This document shows, piece after piece, positions 3,123 through 22,475 of a stretch of DNA of 25,562 bases (position 1 is its first letter; the number at the start of each line of letters is the position of its first letter). A program made the translations under genes and the position numbers. The notes beneath the pieces are model-generated. The model was not told the DNA's origin. It searched no databases and saw nothing but the letters and a program-made list of their open reading frames with translations. Origin of the DNA: a virus; the IMG/VR virus record IMGVR_UViG_3300009515_000023, positions 1-25,562 of that record. One strand, given 5' to 3'.

Positions 3123-3905
3123 CTAGAAAAAACGTTTTTGCGCTATCAAATGTAAATCGTCCCATATCGGGAATCGATGCTCGTAGTTTTGACGAGCCAT
3201 AATCACATTGAAGCCTAGTTTTTCTAGGTGGGAGGATAGGCTCCTCCTATTCCACATGAGGTAATTCTGCTCCGGCTTCCAGTGGATGAAGCAGGCCGAG
3301 GAACGGGTGTTAATGAAATCAGTATCAGGTGTTCCTATAAACATCATACCATCTTCAACAAGTAGTTTATGGCAAAGGGCGAGAGAGCCGATTGGATCAG
3401 AGAAGGCTTCAAGAGTGTGGTATATCCAGATGAGGTTATATTTGATGTCGGCTGGGAATTGATGGGTCTCAAAGTCATCGGCTATGAGGTTTCCCCCTGT
3501 CTTGAATGAGGTATTCTTATCGATAATGGTGGGAACCCATCCCCTATGGGCGAGGGCGTCTTCTTGATAGGTATTGGAGCGTCCTATGATTAAGACTCTC
3601 CTGCCATATATCATCTCCTCAATAATAGGCGCATAGATACGCACTGGATAGCTATAGGATGCCTCCAACTTCTTATCATACCTACTTCGTTCATCCCAGT
3701 ATTTGGCGTCGTATAGGCCGAGGGGCTTGGTGGCTTGGAAGACTATGCCACAGGAGCAGGTAAACCACCTTGAACGCTTCTTGGTATTGGCGTCTTGCAT
3801 GTAGTAGGTATGGGAGACGTAGGAGGAGCAAACAGGGCAGTTGGCTACCTTCAAGTCCCCTATTTCAATGGGATCTGCGTTCTTTTTAAGATTTAGCATA
3901 GACAT
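3123..3905 (-). CDS. Zn-ribbon class I SAM methyltransferase, copy B
   Basis: A 260-aa protein with an N-terminal zinc site (C23-x2-C26 ... C50-x-C52) and a Rossmann methyltransferase core. The SAM-binding region near residues 103-108 reads 'VLIIGRS' and lacks the usual GxGxG. The post-motif region 'YNLIWIYHTLEAFSDP' and 'MMFIGTPD' fits class I carbohydrate or small-molecule methyltransferases. It is paralogous to the 6402-7190 product: same zinc layout, same 'W..xQ.Y.MW' block and a similar C-terminus. It overlaps the end of the GT9 gene upstream by about 20 nt. The first ATG (3905) and a second at 3899 are both possible; AAGG lies 6 nt before the second. Substrate unknown; a sugar added by the adjacent GT9 is the natural guess. 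Confidence 0.75.
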   Translation of the reverse strand: MSMLNLKKNADPIEIGDLKVANCPVCSSYVSHTYYMQDANTKKRSRWFTCSCGIVFQATKPLGLYDAKYWDERSRYDKKLEASYSYPVRIYAPIIEEMIYGRRVLIIGRSNTYQEDALAHRGWVPTIIDKNTSFKTGGNLIADDFETHQFPADIKYNLIWIYHTLEAFSDPIGSLALCHKLLVEDGMMFIGTPDTDFINTRSSACFIHWKPEQNYLMWNRRSLSSHLEKLGFNVIMARQNYEHRFPIWDDLHLIAQKRFF

Positions 3906-4857
3906 CCTTAAAGTGAGAATAGACTGTTTCTAGTGGGAGACCTGCTCCCATACAAAGGGCGGCCCCCGTTTCATGCGTAGGGCACTGGAGCTTCATATCG
4001 TAGATTAGGAATAGGCATGGGGCGCAAGGGGCTAGGGACGGCATGGCCTCGATGGAGTAGTCATTAGAGAAATACTTGGTGATACACTCTCTGGTGTTAT
4101 GGCCGAGTAAGCAGATTTTGGGGGTGTCATAACATCCACTGGCATGGATGATCCCAGTGTCCGGGGCGATGACTAGGTTGACTAGTCCAGTGAGGGCCAT
4201 GCTGATACGCATTGGAATATTGCCTGAGAGGTTAGTAATACGCCCCTCGATAACCGGCTCAATAATCTGGCATTTGAGATCGCCAACGGTGATAATGTGG
4301 ACATCCGGGTAATCCTTACATATTTGCTCGCAGAGAGATTCGGTGTAGGGCCATGCTTTGTTGTTTCCACTACCGGACATGCCGATTAGAATGTTGTAGC
4401 CGGGCTTTAGATACTTCTTAGCCTCCTGGATTTCACCATCCTCGAAGAATAGCTCTGGCCTAAGATTAACCCCCTTCCAATCCTCCTTGCAATGCTCAAA
4501 GGAGTATTCGTAGAAATTGCGATTAAAACGGGAGAGGCGTTCAAACTTTGGGAGCTTGTAGTCCGGCCCTCTTGGATGTTGGGAGAGAGCCACCTCTATG
4601 GATTCGCTGAAGTCTATAACTCTCTCACAATGATTTTTGCGTTGTAGCCACTCAATATGATCAGATAACGCCTCAATCTTAACATTCTCATCGTGTTGGA
4701 TAAGTTTATGAATATGGGGATTACCCTTAAGAACCTCCATCCCGCGCTTAGAAGTCACATAGGTAATCTCATGGCCTTGGGAGTGGAGGTGGCGGATGAT
4801 GGGGGTGGTAATCAAGACATCCCCATAGGCCCCGGATCGGAAGATTAAGATTCTCAC
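3886..4857 (-). CDS. GT9 (heptosyltransferase-like) glycosyltransferase, copy B
   Basis: A 323-aa protein of glycosyltransferase family 9, the group of ADP-heptose:LPS heptosyltransferases. Seen: N-terminal 'RSGAYGDVLITTP' (residues 7-19), the phosphate-region loop 'GMSGSGNNKAWP' (159-170) and the donor-binding 'APDTGIIHASGCYDTPKICLLG' region (231-252), which is the most diagnostic GT9 block. GTG start at 4857 shares the GTGA overlap with the GT2 stop, showing operon coupling. GT9 enzymes act on the cytoplasmic side of the inner membrane. The true donor (heptose or another sugar) cannot be read from the sequence. Paralogue of the 7165-8154 product. Confidence 0.85.
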   Translation of the reverse strand: MRILIFRSGAYGDVLITTPIIRHLHSQGHEITYVTSKRGMEVLKGNPHIHKLIQHDENVKIEALSDHIEWLQRKNHCERVIDFSESIEVALSQHPRGPDYKLPKFERLSRFNRNFYEYSFEHCKEDWKGVNLRPELFFEDGEIQEAKKYLKPGYNILIGMSGSGNNKAWPYTESLCEQICKDYPDVHIITVGDLKCQIIEPVIEGRITNLSGNIPMRISMALTGLVNLVIAPDTGIIHASGCYDTPKICLLGHNTRECITKYFSNDYSIEAMPSLAPCAPCLFLIYDMKLQCPTHETGAALCMGAGLPLETVYSHFKDVYAKS

Positions 4858-5645
4858 TTCTTATATACCTCGAACAATAGCTTCCCCCATGTTTTCGCCT
4901 CACCATCAAGAGGCATGTGGGCCATAATTTGAGCGTAGTCGAGACCGGCCAACTTCTCTAAAAACTTCTTTTGATCTTGATCTACACTCACCCCGTTCGA
5001 ATGAGTTGTCACGCTCAAATGGTGGATTACTTTCGACTTAATTGAAAGTATGACTTTCCAATGGTTAATCTTGGCCCAGAGGCAATAAGAGGAATCAGAA
5101 CAATGATTCCTAAAGCGTTTGTCCAGAAGCCCGATTTCCCTTATCATGGACATCCGAAGAAGGCCGGAACATAAAGGAACCCAGTTTACCTCCATAGATT
5201 CAGGGGCTTTGGCCAAGTCTTTTTCATCAACAAAGTATTGATACCCACGAATTAAATCCGACCCGCATAGCTCGTACTTCTGCTCCCTCGACGGATGTAT
5301 TCTTGTGGAAGCCACAATGCCTATATTCTCATCTGTCTGCATGATTTTTAGAAGCTCTGCCAGGAAATCAGGCTCAGGTTCGGTGTCGTTATTAAGAAGG
5401 AGGATGTATTCATATCGATCCCCGCACCAAAGGATTCCTTGGTTTGTCGCGGCAGTAAAACCGGAGTTCTTATCAAGACGAAGAACATCGATGGTATCAT
5501 CTACGAATGGGGTTTCAGAGCCGTCATCAACGACGAGGATGGTCAGATGGCAGTCAGTAAGGCCATGATTGGCCTTCACAAGCTCCACACATTTTCTTGT
5601 GTAGCTTTCCTTGCCATACATCGGAATAATACAAGCTATCGACAT
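4854..5645 (-). CDS. GT2 family glycosyltransferase
   Basis: A 263-aa GT-A fold glycosyltransferase. Residues 1-45 give the nucleotide-binding strand and 'VVDDGS' (38-43); 'NSGFTAATNQGI' (60-71) and 'LLLNNDTEPEPDFL' (82-95) are the classical GT2 rhamnosyl/glycosyl transferase blocks with the metal-binding acidic pair. I place the start at ATG 5645 because it gives the usual 'MSIACIIPMYG' N-terminus and a 10-nt overlap with the preceding gene; a longer frame to 5708 lies inside that gene and lacks a family match. It likely transfers one hexose or deoxyhexose from a nucleotide-sugar. Acceptor unknown. Confidence 0.85.
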   Translation of the reverse strand: MSIACIIPMYGKESYTRKCVELVKANHGLTDCHLTILVVDDGSETPFVDDTIDVLRLDKNSGFTAATNQGILWCGDRYEYILLLNNDTEPEPDFLAELLKIMQTDENIGIVASTRIHPSREQKYELCGSDLIRGYQYFVDEKDLAKAPESMEVNWVPLCSGLLRMSMIREIGLLDKRFRNHCSDSSYCLWAKINHWKVILSIKSKVIHHLSVTTHSNGVSVDQDQKKFLEKLAGLDYAQIMAHMPLDGEAKTWGKLLFEVYKK

Positions 5646-6421
5646 TTGTATAATGCCTCGAAGAAAGCCGCCCTCATATGATGTTGTCCTACATAAAGCG
5701 GACTCCATGATTCCCTAACAGGGTAATCATCCATAGCCCAATCAATCCCATCTTCATTGATGTGGGTCTCCTTCCAACAGGAATAGTAGAAATAGGAGGC
5801 ATGCTTATCGGCGTAATCAAAGTATGACTCTACCTGATCTTTTGTCATTTCATGGAGGCAATCCATGGCTAGGAGAATATCGCACTGGCCTTTTAATTCA
5901 TTCGGGGGGTGGAAGGTAACAGGATGCCCTGGAATAACATTTCCAAGATACCGCTTGGCAAGGCTTAAAGAAGGCTCTACATCAAACATCCTATAAGTCA
6001 AATTCGGATACAATTTAGTCAAAATAAAAGGTATCCTTCCATACCCGCCTCCTATTTCGTGGATAATATTCACATCATTAAAATCGATATATTGGGAAAG
6101 TCTTGTGTATTCTGAAATCGTTGCGACTAAATCCAAACTTACAAGACGGCCCCTATACTCAATAGCAAGCGGATTTCCCTCAAGAGGCTCATAAAACTGA
6201 TCTAAAAACTTATCAGGATAGATGGAGTATAGCTTGTCCCATATGGCCCTAACCTTATCATTGTAATCTTGAGACAAGCTCTGCTTGTCATAATCATAGA
6301 AATAATCATTGTAGAGAAACAGCCCTATTGTTCTCTTGAAATTCTCATAGCCGTATTTATCAAGAAATTCATTCGCGCGCGAATTAAGAAGAGTCCAGTA
6401 TTTAGAAGGGGTATAGGTCAT
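5636..6421 (-). CDS. Putative sugar O-methyltransferase (NanM-like)
   Basis: A 261-aa protein with a helical N-terminal domain and a SAM-binding core: 'IIHEIGGGYGRIPFIL' (119-134, intact Gly-rich motif I), 'MFDVEPSLSLAKRYL' (145-159) and 'LLAMDCLHEM' further on. This arrangement, with the long helical lead and 'YIDF' before motif I, resembles the bacterial 'putative sugar O-methyltransferase' family found in polysaccharide clusters. ATG 6421 is chosen: it overlaps the upstream stop by 20 nt, while the longer frame needs a GTG at 6451 and a 50-nt overlap. It would methylate a hydroxyl on a sugar of the glycan built by its neighbours. The methyltransferase call is firm; the sugar substrate is inferred. 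Confidence 0.75.
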   Translation of the reverse strand: MTYTPSKYWTLLNSRANEFLDKYGYENFKRTIGLFLYNDYFYDYDKQSLSQDYNDKVRAIWDKLYSIYPDKFLDQFYEPLEGNPLAIEYRGRLVSLDLVATISEYTRLSQYIDFNDVNIIHEIGGGYGRIPFILTKLYPNLTYRMFDVEPSLSLAKRYLGNVIPGHPVTFHPPNELKGQCDILLAMDCLHEMTKDQVESYFDYADKHASYFYYSCWKETHINEDGIDWAMDDYPVRESWSPLYVGQHHMRAAFFEALYKCR

Positions 6422-7190
6422 AGGGTTTCTTGAATAAAAGGTGCATATCACGAAGGGGGCGAACGTCGAAGTTCCTCCTCTTGATTTTAGTCTTAAAACC
6501 GATGGCTTCTGCCTCGTCGCAAAAGCTATCCATATCCCACATGATGTAATGTTGCCTTAGAATCCAATGCGCCCACAAGTTGGGGCTGGCCCAATCTATC
6601 TGAAATGGATCTGGCATGGAGATGAAGAGGATACCGCCTTGGTTGAGCATGTTAAAACACTTCTTTAAGGCTTCCAAAGGATAATGAATATGCTCAAAGA
6701 AATGGTTGGCTACTATAATGTCGAATTTCTCATCGATGACATCCTTGTCGAAATCCGCTTGAATGAGACGATGAGTTGATGTATGCGGGGCAATATCAAG
6801 GCCCACCGTCTCATAGTTATACTCTCTTGCCTCATCGAGGAAATAATCCACGACATATCCGAGGTCTAGGATCTTCTTTCCGCAATTTCCGTTTAGGAAG
6901 AAGTCACGCATATAATGGCGAAAAAGAATTTGGAGATGGTCTCTATAGCCGTCCTGCTTATGATCCTCTGTATACTGCGGGTTAAAATAGCTCCCCTGAT
7001 CTATATTCTCCCAGTTGGTATACCAGATATTTTTGCAGTTGCAGAAGGAGTAGCCCCTATCATGGGTAGGATGTGCTTCTCTATTTACAATGACCGTTCC
7101 ATGAACGACAATCGGCTTCTTTCCTCCGCAAAATGGGCAGGCTTGTAAGCACCAAGGCTCAACATCAGGCATTTGCAACGCTATGCTCAT
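6402..7190 (-). CDS. Zn-ribbon class I SAM methyltransferase, copy A
   Basis: 262 aa. Zinc-type cysteines C18-x2-C21 and C50-x-C52 precede a methyltransferase core: 'KILDLGYVVDYFLDEA' (106-121), 'VGLDIAP' (129-135), 'FDIIVANHFFEHIHYPLEAL' and 'GGILFISMPDP'. The motif-I glycine loop is degenerate (only one Gly where family members have two or three), as in copy B. ATG 7190 lies behind GGAGG (short 3-nt spacing) and overlaps the GT9 gene by 26 nt. Copy A and copy B each directly follow a GT9 gene, so methylation probably follows that transfer step. Confidence 0.78.
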   Translation of the reverse strand: MSIALQMPDVEPWCLQACPFCGGKKPIVVHGTVIVNREAHPTHDRGYSFCNCKNIWYTNWENIDQGSYFNPQYTEDHKQDGYRDHLQILFRHYMRDFFLNGNCGKKILDLGYVVDYFLDEAREYNYETVGLDIAPHTSTHRLIQADFDKDVIDEKFDIIVANHFFEHIHYPLEALKKCFNMLNQGGILFISMPDPFQIDWASPNLWAHWILRQHYIMWDMDSFCDEAEAIGFKTKIKRRNFDVRPLRDMHLLFKKPYDLYPF

Positions 7191-8154
7191 AAGCCTCCTC
7201 TACTTTTGCCATAATTTTATCCTCATCGAAAAATACGCATAGAGGAAGTCTCTCTTTGGTTGGACAGCCATAGTATCGTTGCGGGGATTTATGGCACGGT
7301 GAGCAATAAGCCTCCGACTGAACCCAATAGGCGTTATTGGCGTACTTGATGTGGTTATCCCATGAGGCCGCCGTTAGAAGTTGAATAGTTGGGGTGTCCC
7401 AGGAGTGGGAGACGCAGACTAGCCCTGTCTCTGGGCTTATCACCAAATCGAAGTATTTAGACATAAGGGCAACCGTCCTAAAATTCCACACAGCAACCTT
7501 TGAGGATACTCTTTCATGCTCAAATACATCCTCTAAGCAATCTTTGTCCCCAGTCAATACAATAGAGGCGTCCTTGTACTTTTCGAGAATCTTGTAAGCG
7601 ACACTTTTGGCCTGCTGGAATCTCTTGTGGAGGGAAGAACCGGATAGGCAGATTAGGATTAGATAGGTTGAGTTAGTCTTCTTCTTATGATTAGCTATCC
7701 ATGCTTCCGCGTCTTTATGACACCCATCCCCATAATATAGTTGTCCTCTTGTCCCAAAATAAGACTCTGGAAGTCCGCATGCCTCGGTCATCACATCGTA
7801 ATAATTTATATTGCCAAAATTCTCACGTCGATATTTGTCGTTTCGATAATAAGCCATGTCCGTTTCAAGAAGACAATAACCACTCTCTATTGTGTGCATG
7901 AGGTTAAAGAACATGTCATAGGAATCTTTGTGATAATTCCATCGAGAGATAAGCTCCCCATTTGTCACTTTGTTTGTATCAATGTGATAGAGCTTATCGA
8001 TGAATGGATTTCCAAGAAGAATATCTATGCCACGATCAGATGTCTCAAAGGTTACATGGTCTACCTTGAAATGTTCCTTGATGAGCTTGGGAAGATGGGA
8101 GCAATGCATCATGTCGCCGTATGCTCCGTATCTTGCGATTAGGCAGGTTTTCAA
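7165..8154 (-). CDS. GT9 (heptosyltransferase-like) glycosyltransferase, copy A
   Basis: A 329-aa family-9 glycosyltransferase. Seen: 'ARYGAYGDMMHCSHLPKLI' near residues 7-25, 'GNPFIDKLYHID', 'CLSGSSLHKRF', and the donor-site block 'SPETGLVCVSHSWDTPTIQLL', followed by a Cys-rich tail with 'CSPCHKSPQRYYGCP' that may bind metal. Copy B has an equivalent Cys-rich tail ('CAPCLF'). The start is TTG 8154, overlapping the TGA of the C-methyltransferase as TTGA, with AAAGG about 10 nt upstream. The donor sugar is not readable from sequence. Confidence 0.82.
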   Translation of the reverse strand: MKTCLIARYGAYGDMMHCSHLPKLIKEHFKVDHVTFETSDRGIDILLGNPFIDKLYHIDTNKVTNGELISRWNYHKDSYDMFFNLMHTIESGYCLLETDMAYYRNDKYRRENFGNINYYDVMTEACGLPESYFGTRGQLYYGDGCHKDAEAWIANHKKKTNSTYLILICLSGSSLHKRFQQAKSVAYKILEKYKDASIVLTGDKDCLEDVFEHERVSSKVAVWNFRTVALMSKYFDLVISPETGLVCVSHSWDTPTIQLLTAASWDNHIKYANNAYWVQSEAYCSPCHKSPQRYYGCPTKERLPLCVFFDEDKIMAKVEEAYEHSVANA

Positions 8155-9335
8155 ACGATTTCGGCCTTTGGAATAGGGATAATGTAATAGGCGTTTAGGT
8201 GCTTGGTTTTAGCCATAAGCTCACTTGCGAAATTCCAAGCAAGGAGAATGATGTAGTCGGGCTTCTCCTTCTCAAAGTGGCTAAAATCCACAATGGGGAT
8301 GGCTTCCCCAGGGGTCATTTTGCCTTGCTTATCCGGCGTATCATCCACGATGCTTTTAATATAGCGTCCGAGGCCGAAGTAATTGATGAGACTAATCCCC
8401 TTGGCGGATGCCCCATATCCCATAATCTTGGATGATTTTAGGTTCTCCAATACCTGGATAAGACGGCTTCCCATCTCAAAAACTCTTGTGGCAAAATCAA
8501 CATAGGTGGATAGATGATAGAATCCCTCAGACTCCTCATCGGAAAGCATCTCCATGATTGAGTCCTCTCTTTCATAGTAATTCTTGGAAGCGTAGATTCG
8601 AATAGAGCCTCCATGGATGGGGGTTCGTTCTACTTTGAAGATGGGCAGGCCGACAGAGGCGAAGAGATTATTGAGAGGGTTTAGGAGAAAGTAGGATAGA
8701 TGTTCGTGGTAGATGGTGTCAAATTGATTGCCTTTAACCAAGTCCATCATGTAGGGGAATTCCGCAACAAATACCCCATCATCTTCCAAGAAATATTTGA
8801 CCCCGTTTAGGAAGTCGTGAAGATCATCGACATGGGCTAGGACATTTTGGGCAACGATGAAGGATGCTCCTTGGGCTGACTTGTCTCTATAGAACCTAGC
8901 CGTATCCTCTGACCAAAACTTATTCGCGCATGGGAAGCCTTTGCGTATACATTCAGACGCTAGGTTTTCTGAAGGCTCAATTCCAAGGAATCTATTAAAG
9001 CCGATCGATCGGGCTTGCTCCATGAAACAGCCGTCATTTGAGGCAATATCGACGATGAGGGGGTTGGGGGCCATCTTTAAACCTTGGAGCTTCATAGCAA
9101 GTTCTCTGCAATGCAGCTTGAAGGTATTGGAGATGGAGGAGTGATAGGGATAGTTGGAATAGAGGTATTTGGGTTCGACGACAACGCTTAGTTGCGATAG
9201 GTAGCAATCCTCACAAACCAATACCTGTATGGGAAACTTCTTCTTGGATTCGAGGTTATTGGCGGGGGGGACTTCGCCGAGATAGAGATAGGGGAAAAGA
9301 TTAGGGGACTTACAAGCCCTGCACATTGTAACCAT
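8151..9335 (-). CDS. TylC3/TcaB9-type sugar C-methyltransferase
   Basis: A 394-aa three-domain enzyme. Residues 5-45 are the zinc-binding domain (C5-x2-C8 and a second C-x2-C near 41-44, with 'LGEVPPANNL' between). Residues about 85-240 are the SAM domain ('LIVDIASNDGCFMEQA', 'GIEPSENLA', 'QNVLAHVDDLHDFL'), followed by 'YHEHLSYF', which carries the Tyr/His residues used in catalysis in this family. The C-terminal Rossmann-like domain has 'GYGASAKG' and 'IVDDTPDKQGK'. Family members C-methylate dTDP-4-keto-deoxysugars. ATG 9335 has AAGGAG 6 nt ahead. It is the first gene of the carbohydrate cassette, about 60 nt after the preceding virion gene. No keto-sugar synthesis genes are in this window, so the substrate must come from the host or from elsewhere in the genome. 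Confidence 0.85.
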   Translation of the reverse strand: MVTMCRACKSPNLFPYLYLGEVPPANNLESKKKFPIQVLVCEDCYLSQLSVVVEPKYLYSNYPYHSSISNTFKLHCRELAMKLQGLKMAPNPLIVDIASNDGCFMEQARSIGFNRFLGIEPSENLASECIRKGFPCANKFWSEDTARFYRDKSAQGASFIVAQNVLAHVDDLHDFLNGVKYFLEDDGVFVAEFPYMMDLVKGNQFDTIYHEHLSYFLLNPLNNLFASVGLPIFKVERTPIHGGSIRIYASKNYYEREDSIMEMLSDEESEGFYHLSTYVDFATRVFEMGSRLIQVLENLKSSKIMGYGASAKGISLINYFGLGRYIKSIVDDTPDKQGKMTPGEAIPIVDFSHFEKEKPDYIILLAWNFASELMAKTKHLNAYYIIPIPKAEIV

Positions 9336-9362
9336 CCACTCTCCTTTTTGGAGTTAGATGAT

Positions 9363-9388
9363 GGGGGTGAGGTTTTATCCCCACCCCC
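9363..9388 (-). other. Hairpin between capsid block and carbohydrate cassette
   Basis: Left arm 9363-9372 and right arm 9379-9388 pair over 10 bp around a 6-nt loop; the single plus-strand mismatch becomes a G-U pair in minus-strand RNA. There is no U-run after it on the minus strand, so it is a poor intrinsic terminator; an mRNA-stabilising or processing hairpin that lowers expression of the cassette is equally possible. Confidence 0.5.
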
Positions 9389-9398
9389 ACCAATTTAC

Positions 9399-9797
9399 TT
9401 AGTTATCGTTGACCTCAAAGGTCTCACGATACTCAACATTTGCCTGAATCGTCTGGTTCGGATCAGCCGTGCTTAGAACTGATCTAAGCGTAAGCGTATC
9501 GCCAGCCGTGAGGCTCGTTTCCGTCACAGAGCCTTCAACAGTCGTACCTGCCGTGGCATTGGTAGCGAATGTTAAAGTGCCGAGTGCCGTGGTTCCTTTA
9601 GCAAGCACCCATTGGGACGTTGCGCCAGAACCGGCAACATTAGCGACGATATTCCAGTCGGTAATGGTAACAGGGTACATGACCGTAATAGTCTGCACCA
9701 AGGCCGTGGCACGAGTCCCGCAGGTAGCCTGCGTGAACTTAAACACCTTCTTACTTCCATAAGAAGGATCGGAGTAACTTCTGCCGCCTTTAGACAT
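9399..9797 (-). CDS. Small beta-rich virion protein, possible capsid decoration
   Basis: 132 aa, starting at ATG 9797 with AGGAGG 9 nt ahead, 18 nt after the coat gene stop. Very Thr/Ala/Gly/Val-rich with alternating strand pattern ('TITVMYPVTITDWNIVANVAG', and a C-terminal 'IQANVEYRETFEVND'). No enzyme motifs. A gene of this size directly after the coat protein is usually a decoration or minor capsid protein in phages. Family not recognised; its Ser/Thr richness would also suit a glycosylated surface protein, but that is speculation. Confidence 0.6.
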   Translation of the reverse strand: MSKGGRSYSDPSYGSKKVFKFTQATCGTRATALVQTITVMYPVTITDWNIVANVAGSGATSQWVLAKGTTALGTLTFATNATAGTTVEGSVTETSLTAGDTLTLRSVLSTADPNQTIQANVEYRETFEVNDN

Positions 9798-9815
9798 ATA
9801 ATTATTCCTCCTTTC

Positions 9816-10763
9816 TTATAGAGAGTTAACTGTGATAATGCGAGTCTGGCCGTCTGCCTGGCCATTTAGGATACCCGATTGGCTCCAAACCTGTTGGAAC
9901 CCAAGAAGGGCGTACCAAGCAATCGCCTGATCGCGTCCGAAGTCCGTGGGGATACCCACTCGGATTTCTTCAGGAATTGCTACGCCTTCACGAACAGCGT
10001 CAGCACCGAAGAAGCAGGCTTCTCCGTACAAGCCATTGCTTCCATCAGTGTTCGAGAGGAAGTTTGTTTCCTCAACGAAGCGACAGCCGTAGTAGCGACC
10101 GACTTCCCCGATGTAGAGGGGGTCGAGGGACGTCTGTTGGGCCTTAGCTTCGAAGAAGTCATAAAGACCTCTGATGCTATTGGTGGAGGCGACGCAAACG
10201 TACTGGTCATCATCGCGACGAGGGACAAGTCCCTTTTTGAGCTGATCGATGATGTCACGCACGTTCTTGTCCGACATGTTGGCTCCGGCGGTGGCGTTGG
10301 CCGTACCGCTGGTTCCAAAAGTCGTGGTGGCCGTATTGGTGATGGTAGCGATATAGTCGTTGGTCATAAACTGCGTTGCCGCAGCCGAGTCCAACACAAC
10401 TTTCATATCGTTGGTCAGAACGGTTCTAACCGTCTCAGGAACTTGAACTTCAGAAAGTGTTTTAACCTTCTGAGTATACGGAATTGAATTACCATATTCC
10501 GTCATCGTCAAGGTTCCCTGAAGGATAGTATAGTTCCTTTTAGGAATCGTGTCTGTTTCAATCAACGTGCCACCGGCGGTGGAGATGTTCGAGATTTTAT
10601 TAAAGAACACCTTGTTACCGCGGTTTGCGCCAGCCGCCGCTTCAATATCGACAAATTGCCGAAATTTCTGCATCGTCTGGGCCTTATAGCGCAGTTGTTG
10701 AGACAGAGAATCATTTTTGAAAAACCCGCCGAGCGAGTTTATCGAAAATAGCTGTTGTCCCAT
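9816..10763 (-). CDS. Major capsid protein (N4-gp56/P22-like coat family)
   Basis: 315 aa. The N-terminal arm with 'LRYKAQTMQKFRQFVD' (24-39), 'GNKVFFNKISNI' (48-59), the helix-strand pattern through 'TVRTVLTNDMKVVLDSAAATQF', and the diagnostic C-terminal block 'YIGEVGRYYGCRFVEETNFL' fit the N4-gp56 family of HK97-fold coat proteins. It starts at ATG 10763 behind GGAG (6 nt) and follows the scaffold gene by 12 nt, the normal scaffold-coat order. It forms the icosahedral shell. High confidence in the role, moderate in the exact family. Confidence 0.88.
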   Translation of the reverse strand: MGQQLFSINSLGGFFKNDSLSQQLRYKAQTMQKFRQFVDIEAAAGANRGNKVFFNKISNISTAGGTLIETDTIPKRNYTILQGTLTMTEYGNSIPYTQKVKTLSEVQVPETVRTVLTNDMKVVLDSAAATQFMTNDYIATITNTATTTFGTSGTANATAGANMSDKNVRDIIDQLKKGLVPRRDDDQYVCVASTNSIRGLYDFFEAKAQQTSLDPLYIGEVGRYYGCRFVEETNFLSNTDGSNGLYGEACFFGADAVREGVAIPEEIRVGIPTDFGRDQAIAWYALLGFQQVWSQSGILNGQADGQTRIITVNSL

Positions 10764-10775
10764 TTAATTCTCCAA

Positions 10776-11723
10776 TTATTGTGGCCTGCGGGAATTCCGC
10801 ATACGGTTTCTGGCTTTGATTTCTTCTCTCACCTTCTCGGCGTCGGAGAGGAGATTGGATTGAGGGGTCGGAATATCCTCGGCTTCTGTGGCGTCAGGAT
10901 CAGCCAGTACTTGCCGATTAACTCTCTTAGCCTCTATTCCATCTACCTTGGGAGTCTTCAATAAACCTTGTTGATGAATTTCACGATAAGCATCGCTTAC
11001 AGCACGTCTCAAACCGTTCGCACGGTCTGGGTCGTTATAGTAGAGTTTGTGAAGGTCTGGGTCATTATAAAGACCCATAGCCACCTCAAAGAGTTTGCCT
11101 TTTTGGTTGGCGAGGGTCAGGTCGTGCTTCATATCAGCCTGGCCCTTCTCATCCAAAACAACATAGTCTCTGGCTAATTCCAAGAGTGCCTGATTCTCAC
11201 GTTGAGCGCGAGTCTCGACTTCCTGCCTGGCCTTCGCTTCCTCATCCCTGACTGCCTTAATCGCCAAATCCTTTTCTAGCTTGATGAGATAACGGGTAGC
11301 CGCGATTTCTTCCTTTGCGTTACCCTCTTCCCTCATCTTTAGGATATATGCTTCCACCTGCTCTAATGTCGGCTCGGCGTTATCCTTTGGGGTTGGTGTC
11401 TCAGCGGTATTGGGATTAGCGCGAAGACGGGCTATTTCTGCCTGAGCTTCTGCCAACTGTTCTTCAGCACTCTTCTGCTTGGCTACCACCTTATCGATAC
11501 GCTTTTGGACGGCCTGCTTGATGCGGTCAACCTCGGAGAGTTGCGGAGCTTCCTCCACCTTCTCCTCGACCTTTGCAGGAGGAACATCCTCCACATCTTC
11601 ACGCACATCCGGCGTTTCGTTTTCGGCAATAACCGCTTTCTCTACTGCTGCGCGAGGATTATCAATGAGCGTTTCATCTCCAGATGCTTTAGGTGCATCA
11701 GTTACCTTTACTTCATCTGACAT
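10776..11723 (-). CDS. Scaffolding protein
   Basis: 315 aa, highly charged and helical: an acidic N-terminus (about 1-60, Glu/Asp/Val/Pro), a coiled-coil stretch near 65-100 ('IDKVVAKQKSAEEQLAEAQ'), more Glu/Lys/Ala-rich helix to about 185, and a basic C-terminus ending 'RNRMRNSRRPQ' that would contact the coat. Its position just upstream of the coat gene and its composition are typical of podoviral scaffolds, which leave or are degraded on DNA packaging. GAGG lies about 9 nt before ATG 11723. Confidence 0.8.
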   Translation of the reverse strand: MSDEVKVTDAPKASGDETLIDNPRAAVEKAVIAENETPDVREDVEDVPPAKVEEKVEEAPQLSEVDRIKQAVQKRIDKVVAKQKSAEEQLAEAQAEIARLRANPNTAETPTPKDNAEPTLEQVEAYILKMREEGNAKEEIAATRYLIKLEKDLAIKAVRDEEAKARQEVETRAQRENQALLELARDYVVLDEKGQADMKHDLTLANQKGKLFEVAMGLYNDPDLHKLYYNDPDRANGLRRAVSDAYREIHQQGLLKTPKVDGIEAKRVNRQVLADPDATEAEDIPTPQSNLLSDAEKVREEIKARNRMRNSRRPQ

Positions 11724-11806
11724 CGGCGTTAGCCTCTCCCAAGGCGTTTAGAGTCTGCCAAGAGGACTATTACTCAAGTTTATAGACTTTGGGGTCTTGT
11801 GATTTA

Positions 11807-11829
11807 ATTATACAACCTACTCCAAACTT
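11807..11829 (-). promoter_or_regulatory. Candidate promoter for scaffold/coat transcript
   Basis: A perfect TATAAT lies on the minus strand at 11812-11807, in the 93-nt gap before the scaffold gene, directly preceded by TG. The -35 region is weak. If used, transcription would begin near 11800 and give extra copies of scaffold and coat mRNA, which is a common need. Judged by eye only. Confidence 0.4.
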
Positions 11830-12005
11830 GAAGATCGAGTGACGGTTACTTGTGTCATTTGGGCTATGCCGATAGCGTCAACCTTCAAGGATTGCGTCAT
11901 ATTGACGTTTACTATCTTTCCATCTTGAAAGTTGATTTGAAGGGATCCATAGCGACGTTCACTCTGCCACCTTTCAATTTCCTCGGACAGCCTCTTTGGA
12001 ATCAC
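11817..12005 (-). CDS. DUF2292/YezD-like small protein
   Basis: 62 aa. The GTG at 12005 overlaps the previous gene's TGA as GTGA; a TTG three codons earlier is only 2 nt from AAGGAG, so GTG is preferred. The core 'RRYGSLQINFQDGKIVNVN' (about residues 18-36) resembles the short DUF2292 (YezD) fold: a helix, then two strands with an 'xDGKIV' turn. Function of that family is not established. It lies between the portal/small-gene cluster and the scaffold gene. Confidence 0.65.
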   Translation of the reverse strand: MIPKRLSEEIERWQSERRYGSLQINFQDGKIVNVNMTQSLKVDAIGIAQMTQVTVTRSSSLE

Positions 12006-12172
12006 TTGCGCCAAAACTCCTTGGCTAACTCTTTTGCGGCCTTATCCCCCCCTAGCTTATAGGCCCGATCAAGCATGGCCCGTTGTCTATTTGGTGTATA
12101 GCCGGATTGATTCTTAGATTCCTTCTTCAAGACCTTGCGACAGAACTCGTATTCCTCAGTCTCTTTGCTCAC
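12002..12172 (-). CDS. Small basic protein, 56 aa
   Basis: GTG 12172 lies 7 nt after a strong AAAGGAG, inside the end of the previous small gene, and the frame runs 56 codons to TGA 12002-12004. The product is Lys/Arg/Glu-rich with predicted helices ('EYEFCRKVLKKESK', 'KAAKELAKEFWRK'). Both ends are translationally coupled (overlaps on each side). Family not recognised. Confidence 0.6.
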   Translation of the reverse strand: MSKETEEYEFCRKVLKKESKNQSGYTPNRQRAMLDRAYKLGGDKAAKELAKEFWRK

Positions 12173-12335
12173 CGAAAAACTCCTTTGCTTGATGCGCCCC
12201 CATGTCCATTGCCTCTTGTCTCATATCCCTCTCACGATGAGTCGGCTTCATCACTGGGTTAAATAGAGACTTTGGCTTTTCATTAGCCACCTTCTTCATC
12301 GCCTCAATAATCTTCTTCGTGTCAATTTTCTTCAT
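12156..12335 (-). CDS. Small basic helical protein, 59 aa
   Basis: ATG 12335 lies within the last 14 nt of the preceding 153-aa gene, and the frame closes at TGA 12156-12158, overlapping the next gene by 17 nt. The product is Lys-rich and helical ('KKIIEAMKKVANEK', then 'RERDMRQEAMDMG'). Too short to match a family by eye. The chain of overlaps supports real coding. Confidence 0.58.
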   Translation of the reverse strand: MKKIDTKKIIEAMKKVANEKPKSLFNPVMKPTHRERDMRQEAMDMGAHQAKEFFGEQRD

Positions 12336-12783
12336 GGAGTTCCTCCAGGAACGGGTTATAGATGGGGGCTGTCTTCTCAGCCTCCTTCTCCTTTTTCTCC
12401 TTAGCCAAATTATTCTTAGCCAATATGAAATCGTGAAGATGGTTATAGAAATCCATCAGTCCCTTTTGGTAGCCAGCGACAAAGAGGGGGTTATCATCTT
12501 TCCAGTTAGTAGTAAGCGTCCCATGCCAGTAGCGGTTATTAGTGAATCTCCCCGATACTCCGGCTATGGATTCTTGAAGGAGGGGAAAGACTATCTCACT
12601 CCAAGGAGTCGAGGCGAATAGTTCCTCCACCAACTCCCCATTAAGACGAATAAGATTCTCTGGCGAAGGAGTAGCCTGCTCAGCTTTATGTTTACCTTGT
12701 TTATCTAGAAGATGCGACTTTGGCAGAGCGTGGGTCGCCGAGCGAACCTTGCTTACCCTGCGCATTTTGCGCTTGGATTCCAT
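12322..12783 (-). CDS. Conserved-looking portal-adjacent phage protein, 153 aa
   Basis: It overlaps the portal 3' end by 83 nt; ATG 12783 has GGAG about 10 nt upstream. The N-terminus is basic; residues about 50-130 form a globular helical part with aromatic clusters ('STPWSEIVFPLLQESIAGVSG', 'GYQKGLMDFYNHLHDF'), followed by a Lys/Glu-rich tail. Proteins of this shape are often seen right after the portal gene in podovirus-like genomes, without a known function. I infer a packaging or assembly accessory role. Confidence 0.65.
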   Translation of the reverse strand: MESKRKMRRVSKVRSATHALPKSHLLDKQGKHKAEQATPSPENLIRLNGELVEELFASTPWSEIVFPLLQESIAGVSGRFTNNRYWHGTLTTNWKDDNPLFVAGYQKGLMDFYNHLHDFILAKNNLAKEKKEKEAEKTAPIYNPFLEELHEEN

Positions 12784-14875
12784 TTTTTAGTTGCTCCGAT
12801 TGTATGTGGATGGATGTATGCTTGTTGATAAGATTGGCAATGCCCTCATTCTGCATAGCCTGCGCTCCCTGTGGTGTGCTAGCCCACTCCTCGATGACTT
12901 GGAGGTGAATATTGTCATCGTCGTCTGGCGATACTGGCACATCAAAGCCGTTTAGCATGCGGACGATTTCCTCTTGTTGCTGAGAAAGTTGCTCCATACT
13001 TGCTCCCTGCGGAGCGGTAATAAACTTGCTCGCCACATCCACATCAGGGTCTTTATCGATGAAGTCTTGGAGCATGTTGTAGATATTCGTTGGGGATACC
13101 ACCCCCACCGGCTGTCCATACTTCATCACAATCTCCATGCGCTGTATGGCCTTGGCCATCTGCATTTGGGAGTCTGTGGCATCGAGAGAACCGCTCCATG
13201 AGACGACAACCTTCACTAGAAAGTCCTCTGGGCGAAGAAGCACCCCCCCTATCTTCATGGGGCGAGTGACGGCTTGCTTGCAGATCAAATACATGTGGTT
13301 TGCCACTTCCCCAAGAGTATCGAGGAAGAGGGCAATATCCATGTTTACCTGCCGAGTCGAGCTTTGATTGATCGCTTGAATTTCTGTAGCCGTCCTTGCG
13401 CTTCCTTGGTTAATCGCGCTACGCTGGCTAAAATCCGTGATGGAAAGGTATTCTTCGGCATAAGCCTTCGCTTGCTGTTCAAGTCTTTCGGATGAGACAT
13501 CTGTTGTAATCCCCTTATTTAACATCTCAATCTCGCCCGCCTCACCTTGGATGACTTGGCCGGGCCTCATGCGTATTTCATCACCGGCCATTCCAAGTTG
13601 CTTGGATACCCGCCACATAGGCGCATTATTCATGGCATCGCGATTAAGCCTGGCGTTATACATCTGCTCGATAGTCTGATGGAGGCCCCTAATCTTCTCA
13701 GGTACGCCACGCGAGCTATACCATCTAGTATTCTTCACCTCATAATCATGCTTCACATATGTCCACATTCCGTGGTCATAGGGCAGGGGCATTTCTTGGA
13801 GGATACGAATATCGTGGGTGGGGTTTCCATCCTTATCGCTTGCCTCCCCAACCTCCTCCACCCAAGTAAACACCCACTTCTCGCCCTCATACCAAGTCTG
13901 GCACTCACGAACGTTGAATAGGCCGGATTTAACATCAAGCGTTGATACTCCCTCGGAGATCGCCCAGGAGGTGTTGGTGAGGGTATCATCCGTTGTGCCA
14001 CCCTCTGGGTTTAGGGAATCCACCGCCTCCTTATCATAAATCTTATTGCGGGCAAGTTTCCTAAGCTCCTCATACCCCATCCACATGTCGTGGCAGATAC
14101 GGGGGAGTCGCTGGGTTTCTGTTCCGGATGATGGCACAATGATTCGAAGCCCGCGCTCAGGGATAACGGTGGGCTCAGAGAATATCTCCTTTTTGGTGAA
14201 CTTAATCACTTTTTTGCCCGCCTTAAACTGGGCAATAGCCTTATCAATCTCCCTTACATCATCCTCATCATCCAAGTCCATTTCTTCACGCTGGGCGAGG
14301 ACTAGCCTCAACTCATCCCTCTTCATGGATTTTAGAATCTTAATATCCTCAATCGAGAAGTTATCCTCAATATTGATTGTGCGATTGATGGTCTTGGAGA
14401 AGAACTTTTCGATGACTTTGAAGACAGCATGGCCGTTCTCAAGGAAGTAATCTACAAAGAGGGTGACTTTTTTGGCCCAGCCGAAGTCGCGTTTCTTGAC
14501 GAGATTGTTGAGGGCGCGTTCTATCCGCTCGGCTGAAGCCTTGGTTTCCGGTGTCGCAACCTCCCCATCATCAAGTGTCACCACAACCTGCTTCTTCATA
14601 AGTGTCGCTACACTTACAAACATAGATTTGAGCTTGGTGATAAACTTATCCGTGATGGGGATGGGAACTTCGCTTGCGCCTGGATAGGGGCGGTTGGTGC
14701 GACGCTTGAGTCCTAAGCGCGCGTTATGCGCAACAACCTGCTTATCCTTCCAAACCTGTCTATCATCATCATCCTGCCTAACCTTCTGGGCAAGCTGTTT
14801 AATAAACTGATGGCGTTTGGAATCCGGGGGGGAGAGCTTAAGAGTTTTTTCCTGCGGTTGAATCTCAGTGGGCAT
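12701..14875 (-). CDS. Portal protein (P22-like)
   Basis: About 724 aa, the usual length of large podoviral portals. Seen: 'RPYPGASEVPIPITDKFI' near residues 60-80, a long helical stem/wing region, 'YVKHDYEVKNTRWYSSRGVPE' near 370-395, 'QMYNARLNRDAMNNAPMWRV' (crown/clip approach) and a Gln/Met-rich C-terminal helical region (about 600-720). ATG 14875 is chosen over an upstream TTG at 14902: it leaves an 11-nt overlap with the previous gene. It forms the dodecameric DNA channel and the docking site for TerL and the adaptor. Confidence 0.88.
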   Translation of the reverse strand: MPTEIQPQEKTLKLSPPDSKRHQFIKQLAQKVRQDDDDRQVWKDKQVVAHNARLGLKRRTNRPYPGASEVPIPITDKFITKLKSMFVSVATLMKKQVVVTLDDGEVATPETKASAERIERALNNLVKKRDFGWAKKVTLFVDYFLENGHAVFKVIEKFFSKTINRTINIEDNFSIEDIKILKSMKRDELRLVLAQREEMDLDDEDDVREIDKAIAQFKAGKKVIKFTKKEIFSEPTVIPERGLRIIVPSSGTETQRLPRICHDMWMGYEELRKLARNKIYDKEAVDSLNPEGGTTDDTLTNTSWAISEGVSTLDVKSGLFNVRECQTWYEGEKWVFTWVEEVGEASDKDGNPTHDIRILQEMPLPYDHGMWTYVKHDYEVKNTRWYSSRGVPEKIRGLHQTIEQMYNARLNRDAMNNAPMWRVSKQLGMAGDEIRMRPGQVIQGEAGEIEMLNKGITTDVSSERLEQQAKAYAEEYLSITDFSQRSAINQGSARTATEIQAINQSSTRQVNMDIALFLDTLGEVANHMYLICKQAVTRPMKIGGVLLRPEDFLVKVVVSWSGSLDATDSQMQMAKAIQRMEIVMKYGQPVGVVSPTNIYNMLQDFIDKDPDVDVASKFITAPQGASMEQLSQQQEEIVRMLNGFDVPVSPDDDDNIHLQVIEEWASTPQGAQAMQNEGIANLINKHTSIHIQSEQLKNGIQAQNAQGKQGSLGDPRSAKVASSR

Positions 14876-15071
14876 AATTTCGGCCTGTGATATCCTTTTC
14901 AATTTCCTTAATATGGCGAATGTAGCGATTCACAAGTTTCTTTAGGAACACCTTGTCAAAGGTAATAGTAACGTGGCTTGCGCCATAGAAACCGACACTA
15001 TCCATCAATTCCAGAATATCACAGCATGTATCGGCTTCCTGCTGATAGGAGTCAAAAAACGGATCTCCCAT
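14865..15071 (-). CDS. Small protein between terL and portal, 68 aa
   Basis: ATG 15071 lies 5 nt after AGGGG and 28 nt downstream of the terL stop, so I prefer it to a longer frame beginning inside terL at 15182. The product starts 'MGDPFFDSYQQEADTCCDIL' and has a C-terminal basic helix ('KLVNRYIRHIKEIEKDI'). No family recognised. It ends within the start of the portal gene, so it belongs to the packaging operon. Confidence 0.6.
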   Translation of the reverse strand: MGDPFFDSYQQEADTCCDILELMDSVGFYGASHVTITFDKVFLKKLVNRYIRHIKEIEKDITGRNYAH

Positions 15072-15099
15072 GTTATCCCCTATAATATCGAGCCTTCTT

Positions 15100-16692
15100 C
15101 TATTCTTGGAAGTCGCCCCAGCTTCCGTATTCTTCACCAATATGGACTTCATCGAAACGGACAACCTTCCTATAGTTTTCACTTTGGCGCACCTCCGCTA
15201 GTGAATGGGTGAATTTGAGACCTTCGACGGCTAAGACCCAAGAGTCGGCCCGATCGGGGGATGAGCCGATAACGGGCCTTATTTCTTCCTTCGATAGAAT
15301 ATAGAGACGCCCGTTATCCTTCTTATAACGCGTGGCGTTAAGCTGACGCATGAGAGTGTAATCATCATCTACTTGGACATTCCCGCTTTTCATCTGAAGC
15401 GACGCATTGTGATAGACCTCATCTCGCCTATTGAAGTACGAAGGATTCTTCGACTTCTCTGATGACTTAAACTTCACCACCTTGACACCCTTGGGGTTTG
15501 TGCCAAGGAGTTGGGAGACTAGATCGGCTACTGAGTTTCCAATCGAATCGGCTATGAATACCTGGGCCTTGTGCTTTGTGATAAGCATGATGGATTCTGC
15601 TGCAAGCTGTGTATCCGTACTCTTTGCTATAAACTTGCGCTCAACAACCTGTCCATTGTTCATTACATAGAAGACGGCCTCATCCTCTCCTTCCCCCGCG
15701 GGGTCGAGACTCACCACAATCCTATCCGGCGACAACATCGGCTCATTCTTCGTCGCGCTCTTAAGCTCATTAAACTCAAAGAGGATTCCTTCCTCGCTGC
15801 CCTCATAGTTAATATCAAGCTCCTGGGCAATTTCCACAGCGTCGTGATTTCGTCTTGCGCACTCATTGGCGTACCATGCCTCATCCTTTTCTGGGTGCAA
15901 TCTCCAATGGAGGGTTCTTACGGGGATAGAACCGCTATGACGAAGTTTAGCGAACTGATTATTAAGGCCGAAAGGAGTGCTAACGACAATACGACAATTA
16001 GTAGAGTCAGCAGAAGCCCTCCAAGCCTGGGCATCAGTTTCCCAGAAGGCGAATTCATCAAAAAAAATGGCCCGTCGTCGTCCTGATCGTGAAAAGTTGG
16101 CATTGGTCGCCTCCCCTGTGATTGTGGCTTTGGAATCCGGATTTACTATCTTCATGTAGTTTGAATCACGCTCCCACTTAAAGCCTTTGGGAATCATCCA
16201 GCGGGGCTGGTTACGGATGAGAAATCGAATCTTCTCCATGAGGGTATCCATGTTGCCTATCCCATCGATGTATTGCTCCTTACGGCTTCCGACGAGAAAG
16301 TCATAGCCTTCGCCGTGAAACTGCCAGAACCATGTGAAGACTAGAAGCACGCACCATGTGACCCCCATGTCACGTGATTTATCGATTAGGATGTCCTTCT
16401 GATTCTGTATCGAATCCACCAAGTCTAGGATGAGCTTGTCTTCGTACTCGTAGGTAATAAACGGAATGGTTGAAGGATTCTTTCGGGGATTGTATGTGGC
16501 TAGGAATACGTTGACCCAGTAGAGAATATCATCTTTGCAGATCGAACACATGAGGGCCTGCAATTCCTTATTCGACTGGGCCTTCATCAAAACACGCAGA
16601 CGATAATCCGTGTTTGCCTCAAAAGTTTTCGGGTAGGATTTGGTCTCGAAGATGCTGGGCGCGGGGCTTGGGGCCTCCATAGTCTCACTCAT
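15100..16692 (-). CDS. terL: Terminase large subunit (TerL)
   Basis: 530 aa with both TerL domains. ATPase: Walker A-like 'KSRDMGVTW' (105-113), Walker B 'AIFFDEFAFW' (208-217, with the catalytic Glu) and coupling 'VSTPFG' (237-242). Nuclease (RNase H-like): 'IVVSLDPAGEGED' (325-337; Asp330), 'QVFIADSIGNSVADL' (377-391; Asp382) and 'PDRADSW' (479-485), giving the acidic triad. It translocates DNA into the prohead through the portal and cuts the concatemer. The ATG at 16692 lacks an obvious Shine-Dalgarno. It follows the repeat-rich gap after terS. Confidence 0.95.
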   Translation of the reverse strand: MSETMEAPSPAPSIFETKSYPKTFEANTDYRLRVLMKAQSNKELQALMCSICKDDILYWVNVFLATYNPRKNPSTIPFITYEYEDKLILDLVDSIQNQKDILIDKSRDMGVTWCVLLVFTWFWQFHGEGYDFLVGSRKEQYIDGIGNMDTLMEKIRFLIRNQPRWMIPKGFKWERDSNYMKIVNPDSKATITGEATNANFSRSGRRRAIFFDEFAFWETDAQAWRASADSTNCRIVVSTPFGLNNQFAKLRHSGSIPVRTLHWRLHPEKDEAWYANECARRNHDAVEIAQELDINYEGSEEGILFEFNELKSATKNEPMLSPDRIVVSLDPAGEGEDEAVFYVMNNGQVVERKFIAKSTDTQLAAESIMLITKHKAQVFIADSIGNSVADLVSQLLGTNPKGVKVVKFKSSEKSKNPSYFNRRDEVYHNASLQMKSGNVQVDDDYTLMRQLNATRYKKDNGRLYILSKEEIRPVIGSSPDRADSWVLAVEGLKFTHSLAEVRQSENYRKVVRFDEVHIGEEYGSWGDFQE

Positions 16693-16938
16693 TGTTAATA
16701 AATACTCAGTTCATGGGAAATTTTGTAAAAGTTGGGAGGGTGTGAATATCCATACACCCACCGCCCCAAATTCCGGCCCCCCTGCCCCCCTTGGCCCCGC
16801 CTCACAGCGCGCCGACACTCACAAAGCGCAAGGACACGGGGCTCATGGGATCATGGGTCATGGGGCCAATGTGTTTACAATGCGTGGACACGGGGCCGAG
16901 TGTGTGCGTTGTACTTACAATTGTATTTACGATTGTAT
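16693..16938. other. Non-coding terS-terL gap with repeats
   Basis: 246 nt with no supportable gene on either strand. It holds three tandem 12-mers next to the terS stop, an 11-bp direct repeat (16832-16842 and 16886-16896), a short tandem of TCATGGG units (16843-16865) and a C-rich tract (about 16755-16800). Such a concentration between terminase genes would suit a terminase recognition site (pac/cos) or an RNA structure, but neither is shown. Confidence 0.6.
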
Positions 16939-16942
16939 TTAC
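16907..16942. repeat. Three tandem 12-bp repeats at the terS stop
   Basis: Units 16907-16918, 16919-16930 and 16931-16942 share the core TTGTAYTTAC with exact 12-bp spacing. The last unit contains the terS stop codon (16939-16941). A 12-bp period puts sites close to one helix turn apart, as expected for a protein-binding array. Confidence 0.65.
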
Positions 16943-17382
16943 TCAAGAAGCTTGCGCGCCGCGGCCCACTTATCCGCCGGCGAGAGAGAGTCGAGATTGA
17001 TGTTGATTTGAGTGTTGTTGTTTATTGTTGCTACCTGGCCGGAGTCTCCGCCGAGGTGTCCGAGAGCGCGACCGACAATTTCAAGCGATCGAATGCGGAC
17101 GGCTGGCGGATTTTCTTCTGAATCGTACTCTTTCAGGGCCGTTGAGACGAAATCCGTCCGAGACAATTCCGCTTTTTTAGCTACGCGCCAAGCGTCAATT
17201 TCCGCCTTTACTTTAGCATGTCTTAGCAAACGCGCGCCTTCAACGTGGGCAGAATTGATCGAGTATCCAGCAAGGCGGGCGGCTTCAGAAGCATTTCCAG
17301 ATTGTTTGTAAGCGTCAATGAAGCGAGTTTGACGTTCTGTAAGCATGTAAACATGATTATCAAATTCAAGTATATTTGTCAA
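16939..17382 (-). CDS. terS: Terminase small subunit (Terminase_2 type)
   Basis: Up to 147 aa. Residues 13-50 show the N-terminal helix-turn-helix-like DNA-binding pattern of this family: 'LTERQTRFIDAYKQSGNASEAARLAGYS', followed by the 'SAHVEGARLLRHAKVKAEI' helix. The middle is helical; the C-terminal part is an oligomerisation region ('INNNTQININLDSLSP'). The first codon is TTG 17382; ATG 17346 (residue 13) fits the family start better. TerS recognises the packaging site and loads TerL. It heads the leftward virion operon. Confidence 0.85.
   Translation of the reverse strand: MTNILEFDNHVYMLTERQTRFIDAYKQSGNASEAARLAGYSINSAHVEGARLLRHAKVKAEIDAWRVAKKAELSRTDFVSTALKEYDSEENPPAVRIRSLEIVGRALGHLGGDSGQVATINNNTQININLDSLSPADKWAAARKLLE
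17356..17382 (-). promoter_or_regulatory. Weak candidate leftward promoter at terS
   Basis: On the minus strand TTGACA (17382-17377) is followed after 15 nt by GATAAT (17361-17356). The spacer is shorter than optimal and the site overlaps the longer terS reading frame, so it would only work with the ATG 17346 start and a nearly leaderless message. Listed as a possibility. Confidence 0.25.
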
Positions 17383-20991: not shown

Positions 20992-21206
20992 GTAAGTTCA
21001 GAGAGGATTTTGAAGAGTCTTTCGATAAGGCATTAGGATTTGATATTGAGCATTTATGCGGAATTGGCAAATCCTTTAGGAGTCTTCAGATGAAGTCCGC
21101 TCTCTTTTCAATCAAATGGATTCTTGATCGATTGTCAAAAGATGGGGAGTTTTCAACAGAACAGCGTGGGTATCTTAGTCGCTTGTTAAGGGAGATGGAT
21201 TCATAA
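20988..21206 (+). CDS. Small helical protein, 72 aa
   Basis: ATG 20988 overlaps the previous TGA as ATGA. Fully helical, charged ('FREDFEESFDKALGFDIEHL', 'FSIKWILDRLSKDG'). Family not recognised. Confidence 0.58.
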   Translation: MSKFREDFEESFDKALGFDIEHLCGIGKSFRSLQMKSALFSIKWILDRLSKDGEFSTEQRGYLSRLLREMDS

Positions 21207-21361
21207 TGAGCTATCCGGGCAGTGATGAGCCGTGTGAGTGTTTGGAGATTGACTGGGATGAGGGCGGGCTATGCTTGGTCTGTAACCAGCGTTGGATACG
21301 CCATGCGGATCCTGATCATCTTGGGGGGTATAGTTGGACGATGGAGAGGGTGGAAGGATGA
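21206..21361 (+). CDS. Mini Cys-rich protein, 51 aa
   Basis: ATG 21206 shares its first base with the previous stop. 'CECLEIDWDEGGLCLVCNQRW' contains C-x-C and C-x2-C, a probable zinc ribbon. Ends in ATGA overlap with the next gene. Confidence 0.55.
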   Translation: MSYPGSDEPCECLEIDWDEGGLCLVCNQRWIRHADPDHLGGYSWTMERVEG

Positions 21362-21511: not shown

Positions 21512-21764
21512 GTGGACGGAAATGAGCCCCGTTTGAAAACTATTTTATTTTACGTGTCCGATTTCGGTTTTCCCTATATACATATTTTTCAAGAAAAAAA
21601 AGAGAAGTACGATCGTCTTTCCGTCCAATTTTCCGTAACTGTATGGGTTTAAATGGGTAATCAAGGGACGTTGAAAGTCCCTTCACCGCCACAACCGACC
21701 CTAATATCTGAGTATTTGTACGGAAAAAACTTTACCAACGTCCCTCAGGAAGTTTTCCGTCCAC
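21512..21764. repeat. Outer 11-bp inverted repeat pair, GTGGACGGAAA / TTTCCGTCCAC
   Basis: The arm 21512-21522 is the exact reverse complement of 21754-21764, bracketing about 230 nt. Internal partial copies share the TTTCCGT core, pointing to several binding sites for one protein. Confidence 0.7.
21663..21683. repeat. Hairpin AAGGGAC / GTCCCTT
   Basis: A 7-bp perfect stem (21663-21669 with 21677-21683) around a 7-nt loop. The left arm and loop also pair with 21736-21745 over 10 bp, so two alternative structures are possible. Confidence 0.6.
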
Positions 21765-21795: not shown

Positions 21796-21827
21796 TTGAC
21801 AAAAAATAAGCCCCATGTTACCGTAAC
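21796..21827 (+). promoter_or_regulatory. Candidate exonuclease promoter overlapped by a palindrome
   Basis: TTGACA (21796-21801), 17 nt, then TACCGT (21819-21824), which keeps only the three most conserved -10 bases. The -10 is covered by the 11-nt palindrome GTTAC-C-GTAAC (21817-21827), a plausible operator. The leader would be very short, so this is uncertain. Confidence 0.35.
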
Positions 21828-21842
21828 AACAGGGCCACAAAA

Positions 21843-22475
21843 ATCAAACTTCTATACCTCGATACCGAAACAACCGGACTAAACGAGAAAAAAAACGCCA
21901 TAATCCAGCTATCCGGCCTCATCGAAATCGACGGCTCCATCGTAAAAGAATTCGACTACCGCCTTCGTCCACATCCTTCAGCTGAAATAGACCAAAAAGC
22001 CCTCGAAATCAACGGCCTATCCGCCGAATCCCTCCTAGATCCCGAACGTCTCGACCCTGTTGACGCCTATAAGAAGCTAAAATCCATATTCCTAACCTAC
22101 ATCGACCGCTACGACAAGGCCGATAAGTTCTACCTAATGGGCCAGAACGTTCATTTTGACTATGGATTTCTTTTGGAGTTGTGGAAAAGACAATCGGACG
22201 ACTATTTGGGTTCCTTTATCGCCTATCACAAAATCGATCTGATAGCCCTTACAGCGTCCCTTCGGATAGCCGGTGTGAAGCCGTTTGACAGGGCTGAGAA
22301 TTTGAAACTTAGCACATTATGCGGGCTATTCGGATTGGAAGCCCAAAAACACGACTCCCTTTCGGACATTCGCCAAACAAGATATATCTACGGGAAGATA
22401 CTAGAAGGGTTGCGAGGGCTCTCTATTAAGACCGAAGATAAGGTTGATATTCCGAAGCCCCCGCTCCCCGTTTGA
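21843..22475 (+). CDS. DEDDh 3'-5' exonuclease (DnaQ/RNase T-like), apparent ATC start
   Basis: 210 aa with all DEDDh motifs: Exo I 'YLDTETTGL' (5-13; D7, E9), Exo II 'QNVHFDYGFL' (101-110; D106) and Exo III 'KHDSLSDIRQT' (169-179; H170, D175). The family usually begins 'MKxLxLDTETTG'; here the codon at the Met position (21843-21845) is ATC, and no ATG, GTG, TTG or CTG lies between it and the in-frame TAA upstream. AGGG sits 8 nt before ATC, so initiation at ATC is possible; otherwise it is a mutated start or a sequence error. The first internal ATG (22137, residue 99) would drop D7 and E9. It overlaps the helicase 3' end by 75 bp on the opposite strand. Likely a replication proofreading or nucleotide-recycling nuclease. 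Confidence 0.8.
   Translation: MKLLYLDTETTGLNEKKNAIIQLSGLIEIDGSIVKEFDYRLRPHPSAEIDQKALEINGLSAESLLDPERLDPVDAYKKLKSIFLTYIDRYDKADKFYLMGQNVHFDYGFLLELWKRQSDDYLGSFIAYHKIDLIALTASLRIAGVKPFDRAENLKLSTLCGLFGLEAQKHDSLSDIRQTRYIYGKILEGLRGLSIKTEDKVDIPKPPLPV

Follow-up and report, generated by a model that had tools for sequence, protein, structure and literature searches.

The window, that is, the whole stretch of DNA analysed here, is an entire virus record of 25,562 bases consisting of one metagenomic contig and is probably a tailed-phage fragment. The terminase (15100-16692), connector, and major head proteins were recognised in the window. Toward its right side, the plus strand carries an open reading frame (ORF) for a DnaQ-like (DEDDh) exonuclease, which spans 21843-22475, stop included, when it is read from an ATC codon at 21843-21845. 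A leftward operon including a primase runs opposite the exonuclease on the minus strand, from 25553 to 22401. Rfam families and tRNAs were searched for, and none were found. Adjoining the structural genes, a series of minus-strand ORFs at 3123-9335 appeared by eye to be methyltransferase-like and glycosyl/heptosyltransferase-like, an uncommon cargo for a phage.

A long intergenic gap lies to the left of the exonuclease. Five of the six TTTCCGTM sites found on both strands of the window fall within 247 bases of this gap (21515-21761), possibly marking an origin or operator region, and two of the clustered sites form an 11-base inverted pair, GTGGACGGAAA / TTTCCGTCCAC. The same gap contains a perfect 7-bp hairpin, AAGGGAC-GTTGAAA-GTCCCTT, at 21663-21683, which is not followed by a T-run. 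Further left, a 51-aa ORF (21206-21361) with CxC and CxxC pairs overlaps the stop of the preceding gene. It has a good ribosome site (-8.4 kcal/mol), and a search against NCBIfam gave no match.

The identity of the exonuclease is supported by profiles, alignments, and a structural model. The PF00929 (RNase_T) profile scored 45.8 bits against a curated cut-off of 24, and the protein matched phrog_192 with an E-value of 2.5e-29. The ORF comprises 210 codons with no internal stop or frameshift. As the original prediction had stated, all five catalytic residues are present: motifs I-III are complete, and D7, E9, D106, H170, and D175 are invariant in the alignments with relatives. The AlphaFold2 model, built from six sequences, had a mean pLDDT of 83, placed the first strand at residues 2-10, and resembled RNase T with a TM-score of 0.73, while DnaQ domains were also matched. 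RNase T and the DNA polymerase III epsilon subunit/DnaQ (PDB 3v9u, 8h18, 2ido) are the nearest solved folds, although the identity of only 18-25% is too low to assign a substrate. The protein shares its fold, five catalytic residues, and length with the DnaQ-like DEDDh exonucleases of phrog_192/PF00929, for example the product of gene P2559Y_0049 of Croceibacter phage P2559Y, and the distance from the N-terminal strand to motif I is equal. Judged by sequence and model, the ORF ending at 22475 thus encodes a full-length DEDDh exonuclease with predicted 3'-5' activity, and the protein as read from the ATC is complete.

The retained catalytic residues had been taken to argue against a dead gene. 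The same residues would, however, be expected in a gene that was silenced recently. As no stop interrupts the ORF and its fold and catalytic residues are retained, any silencing would have to be recent; the intact ORF suggests selection until recently and does not imply present production. The frequency of G at third codon positions is 6% in the first 98 codons (21843-22136) versus 27% in the rest (Fisher p 8e-5), which would place a boundary, either mosaic or of codon choice, near 22137.

Following the in-frame TAA at 21807-21809, the codons read GCC CCA TGT TAC CGT AAC AAC AGG GCC ACA AAA ATC(21843) and continue from the ATC with AAA CTT CTA TAC CTC GAT ACC GAA ACA ACC GGA. No ATG, GTG, or TTG occurs in frame between this TAA and LLYLDTETTG, the first conserved strand, and the ATC is the sole start of translation table 11 in that stretch that yields the whole domain; both points agree with the original prediction. 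The first standard in-frame start is the ATG at 22137-22139 on the plus strand, 98 codons beyond the ATC, and its product lacks motif I. From the local base composition, the chance of an ATC at one given codon is about 2% and that of a near-cognate codon (ATH/CTG) is 8%, rising to 33% for a near-cognate at any one of five codons surrounding the expected methionine. The absence of a standard start is therefore real and unusual, whereas the presence of the ATC is only mildly surprising.

To place the start, eight relatives from phage and virus contigs were inspected, all 30-40% identical to the window exonuclease and none of them close; since two (L041 and L042) are near-identical, they amount to about seven independent sequences. 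All eight start with ATG, unlike the window gene, and the ATC start is conserved in none of them, nor is any other non-standard start used. Six (L001, L002, L005, L006, L041, and L042) have their methionine exactly at the position of the ATC, as does a homologue on a Parabacteroides plasmid, whereas in L004 it lies one codon and in L043 two codons earlier. L043, among the closest relatives with 39% identity, begins MSIKALYFD, and its ATG TCA ATC AAG aligns with ACA AAA ATC AAA of the window, so that the matching ATC is an internal isoleucine codon. By this alignment, the window ATC may likewise be merely an internal isoleucine codon of a gene that once started upstream. The earlier claim that ATC replaces the conserved methionine accordingly holds for the alignment with six of the eight relatives, but it is one reading of the alignment only. 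N-termini are longer in more distant homologues from Bacillota and Shewanella.

The relatives would fit an ordinary gene that truly has ATG at 21843, misread during sequencing or consensus building or displaced in the assembly by a minority variant. A single base change from G to C at 21845 is enough for this, the rest of the ORF is intact, and the record is a lone metagenomic contig. We regard such an error as possible but doubtful. The same phage is present in another assembly (L007), which covers only window positions 5103-17031 and differs from the window at one of 11,929 shared bases, giving an expected difference of about 2.5e-4 in one given start codon; a difference between assemblies at the start codon is thus unlikely, as is a genuine ATC start. 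The sole difference is at 16138, inside the terminase gene, with C in the window and A in L007. Searches for a second assembly of the start site itself, with an exact pattern carrying N at the disputed base and with a degenerate pattern across the N-terminus, returned no matches. An error in one base would also leave the weak ribosome site upstream of the ATC unexplained.

This proposed ribosome-binding site, AGGG at 21831-21834 on the plus strand, ends eight bases 5' of the ATC, as had been claimed. The spacing is suitable, but the strength is at background: pairing with the anti-Shine-Dalgarno sequence amounts to -3.1 kcal/mol, the median of random positions, and 48% of random window positions are equal or better. 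Sites of -6 to -12 kcal/mol precede most of the window's other genes, from which we conclude that the host probably uses strong ribosome sites. A few others, namely the gene at 1420-2436 and the terminase gene, also have weak sites.

The GGG of the AGGG falls within the stem of a hairpin at 21807-21838. The plus strand, GCCCCATGTTACCGTAACAACAGGGCC, folds weakly (-9.5 kcal/mol, z -1.9), whereas its complement folds well (-14.9 kcal/mol, z -2.8) and is followed by TTATTTTTT. The hairpin lies about 560 bases past the primase stop, and on these features of the minus strand it could possibly be the intrinsic terminator of the leftward operon. Because it is bulged, it was found only with a looser scan, in which it was the sole match in the whole window with 1.3 expected by chance; the stricter terminator scan found none in the region. 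The AGGG may be part of the hairpin rather than a ribosome site. If the terminator is real, the full length of the exonuclease gene would be covered by an antisense leftward transcript, and the ORF of the exonuclease would start a few bases past a terminator and not behind a ribosome site.

The original prediction held that use of the ATC would keep the nuclease at low levels. A functional start of low efficiency that limits the nuclease, perhaps under the control of initiation factor IF3 as for infC, has precedent: infC starts with ATT in Escherichia coli and with ATC in Streptomyces (PMC5472188). The exonuclease would likewise be ATC-initiated if the ATC is used, and the completeness of the domain and catalytic set as read from this codon and the spacing of the AGGG agree with such use. 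However, starts of the infC type are exceedingly rare, and whereas the infC start has been studied experimentally and is controlled by IF3 (PMC5472188), the window exonuclease has neither conservation of its start nor a strong ribosome site, and what site it has is at background and held in a hairpin. With no non-standard start among the relatives and a terminator-like hairpin next to the ATC, limitation of the nuclease by its start codon is unsupported, and we consider a functional ATC start unlikely. Leaky use of ATC is nevertheless possible, given that a Bacillus subtilis rny-lacZ fusion with the start mutated to AUC showed much lower yet measurable expression (PMC10303841). In an extended form of the proposal, the exonuclease would be translated from the ATC next to a hairpin that doubles as the terminator of the opposing transcript, and antisense transcription and mRNA structure would act together with the start codon to keep its amount low; this combination appears quite improbable to us.

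The start might instead lie upstream in another frame, at TTG 21796 or ATG 21815, and be connected to the exonuclease by a frameshift or by an indel error of the contig near 21824-21843. The TTG opens a plus-strand ORF (21796-21882) that would need a -1 frameshift or the gain of one base close to the A-run at 21839-21843 to become part of the exonuclease; a sixth A in that run would suffice. Yet the TTG has no ribosome site (+2.0 kcal/mol), a slippery heptamer is absent (CCA CAA AAA TCA), the ATG ends after three codons, and no comparable N-terminal extension occurs in the closer relatives from phages and viruses. Both the frameshift from the TTG and the mini-ORF at the ATG were judged unlikely, and the whole idea of a start further upstream in a different frame is very improbable.

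We tentatively favor the explanation that this is a real full-length DnaQ-like exonuclease gene whose normal start and ribosome site are gone through a real change, although we put it at slightly less than an even chance; the weights given to the four explanations are our judgement and were not computed. Either a point mutation in the start codon or recombination, with its joint next to the putative leftward terminator, would account for the change. The ATC would then be no more than a leaky start with a low protein yield, and might not be used at all. Counted in favor of the loss are the ATG starts of the relatives at, or no more than two codons from, the site, the random-level pairing upstream, the location of the GGG in a terminator-like minus-strand stem, and the absence of the gene from every terminase relative searched. 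Counted against it are the 210 codons unbroken by frameshift or stop, the few other window genes with weak ribosome sites, and terminator-like matches not above chance. The ORF and its family, the missing standard start, the weak ribosome site, the hairpin, and the ATG of the relatives are observed, whereas a genuine change and low or absent expression are inferred.

The distribution of the gene was searched in records found through the terminase. A match to the exonuclease protein was present in none of 23 such records, and the PF00929 profile in none of the 15 searched, some of which are about 44 kb (up to 45 kb) and several of which are fragments. Given its absence from these terminase relatives, the exonuclease appears to be accessory in this phage lineage, and the absence is consistent with a recent gain. 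The neighbouring replication genes had no relatives in viral contigs, the primase had no match in 15 related records, and no relative was confirmed in genome contigs.

The exonuclease ORF without a standard start is confirmed, whereas the case for a purposeful low-level ATC start is weak and lacks support from relatives or context. Gene finders truncate or overlook genes that lack ATG, GTG, or TTG, and for this exonuclease a standard caller would choose 22137 and lose the first catalytic motif. As it stands, the locus is chiefly a caution on interpreting single metagenomic contigs; should the ATC prove functional, this phage enzyme would join a very short list of genes with such starts.
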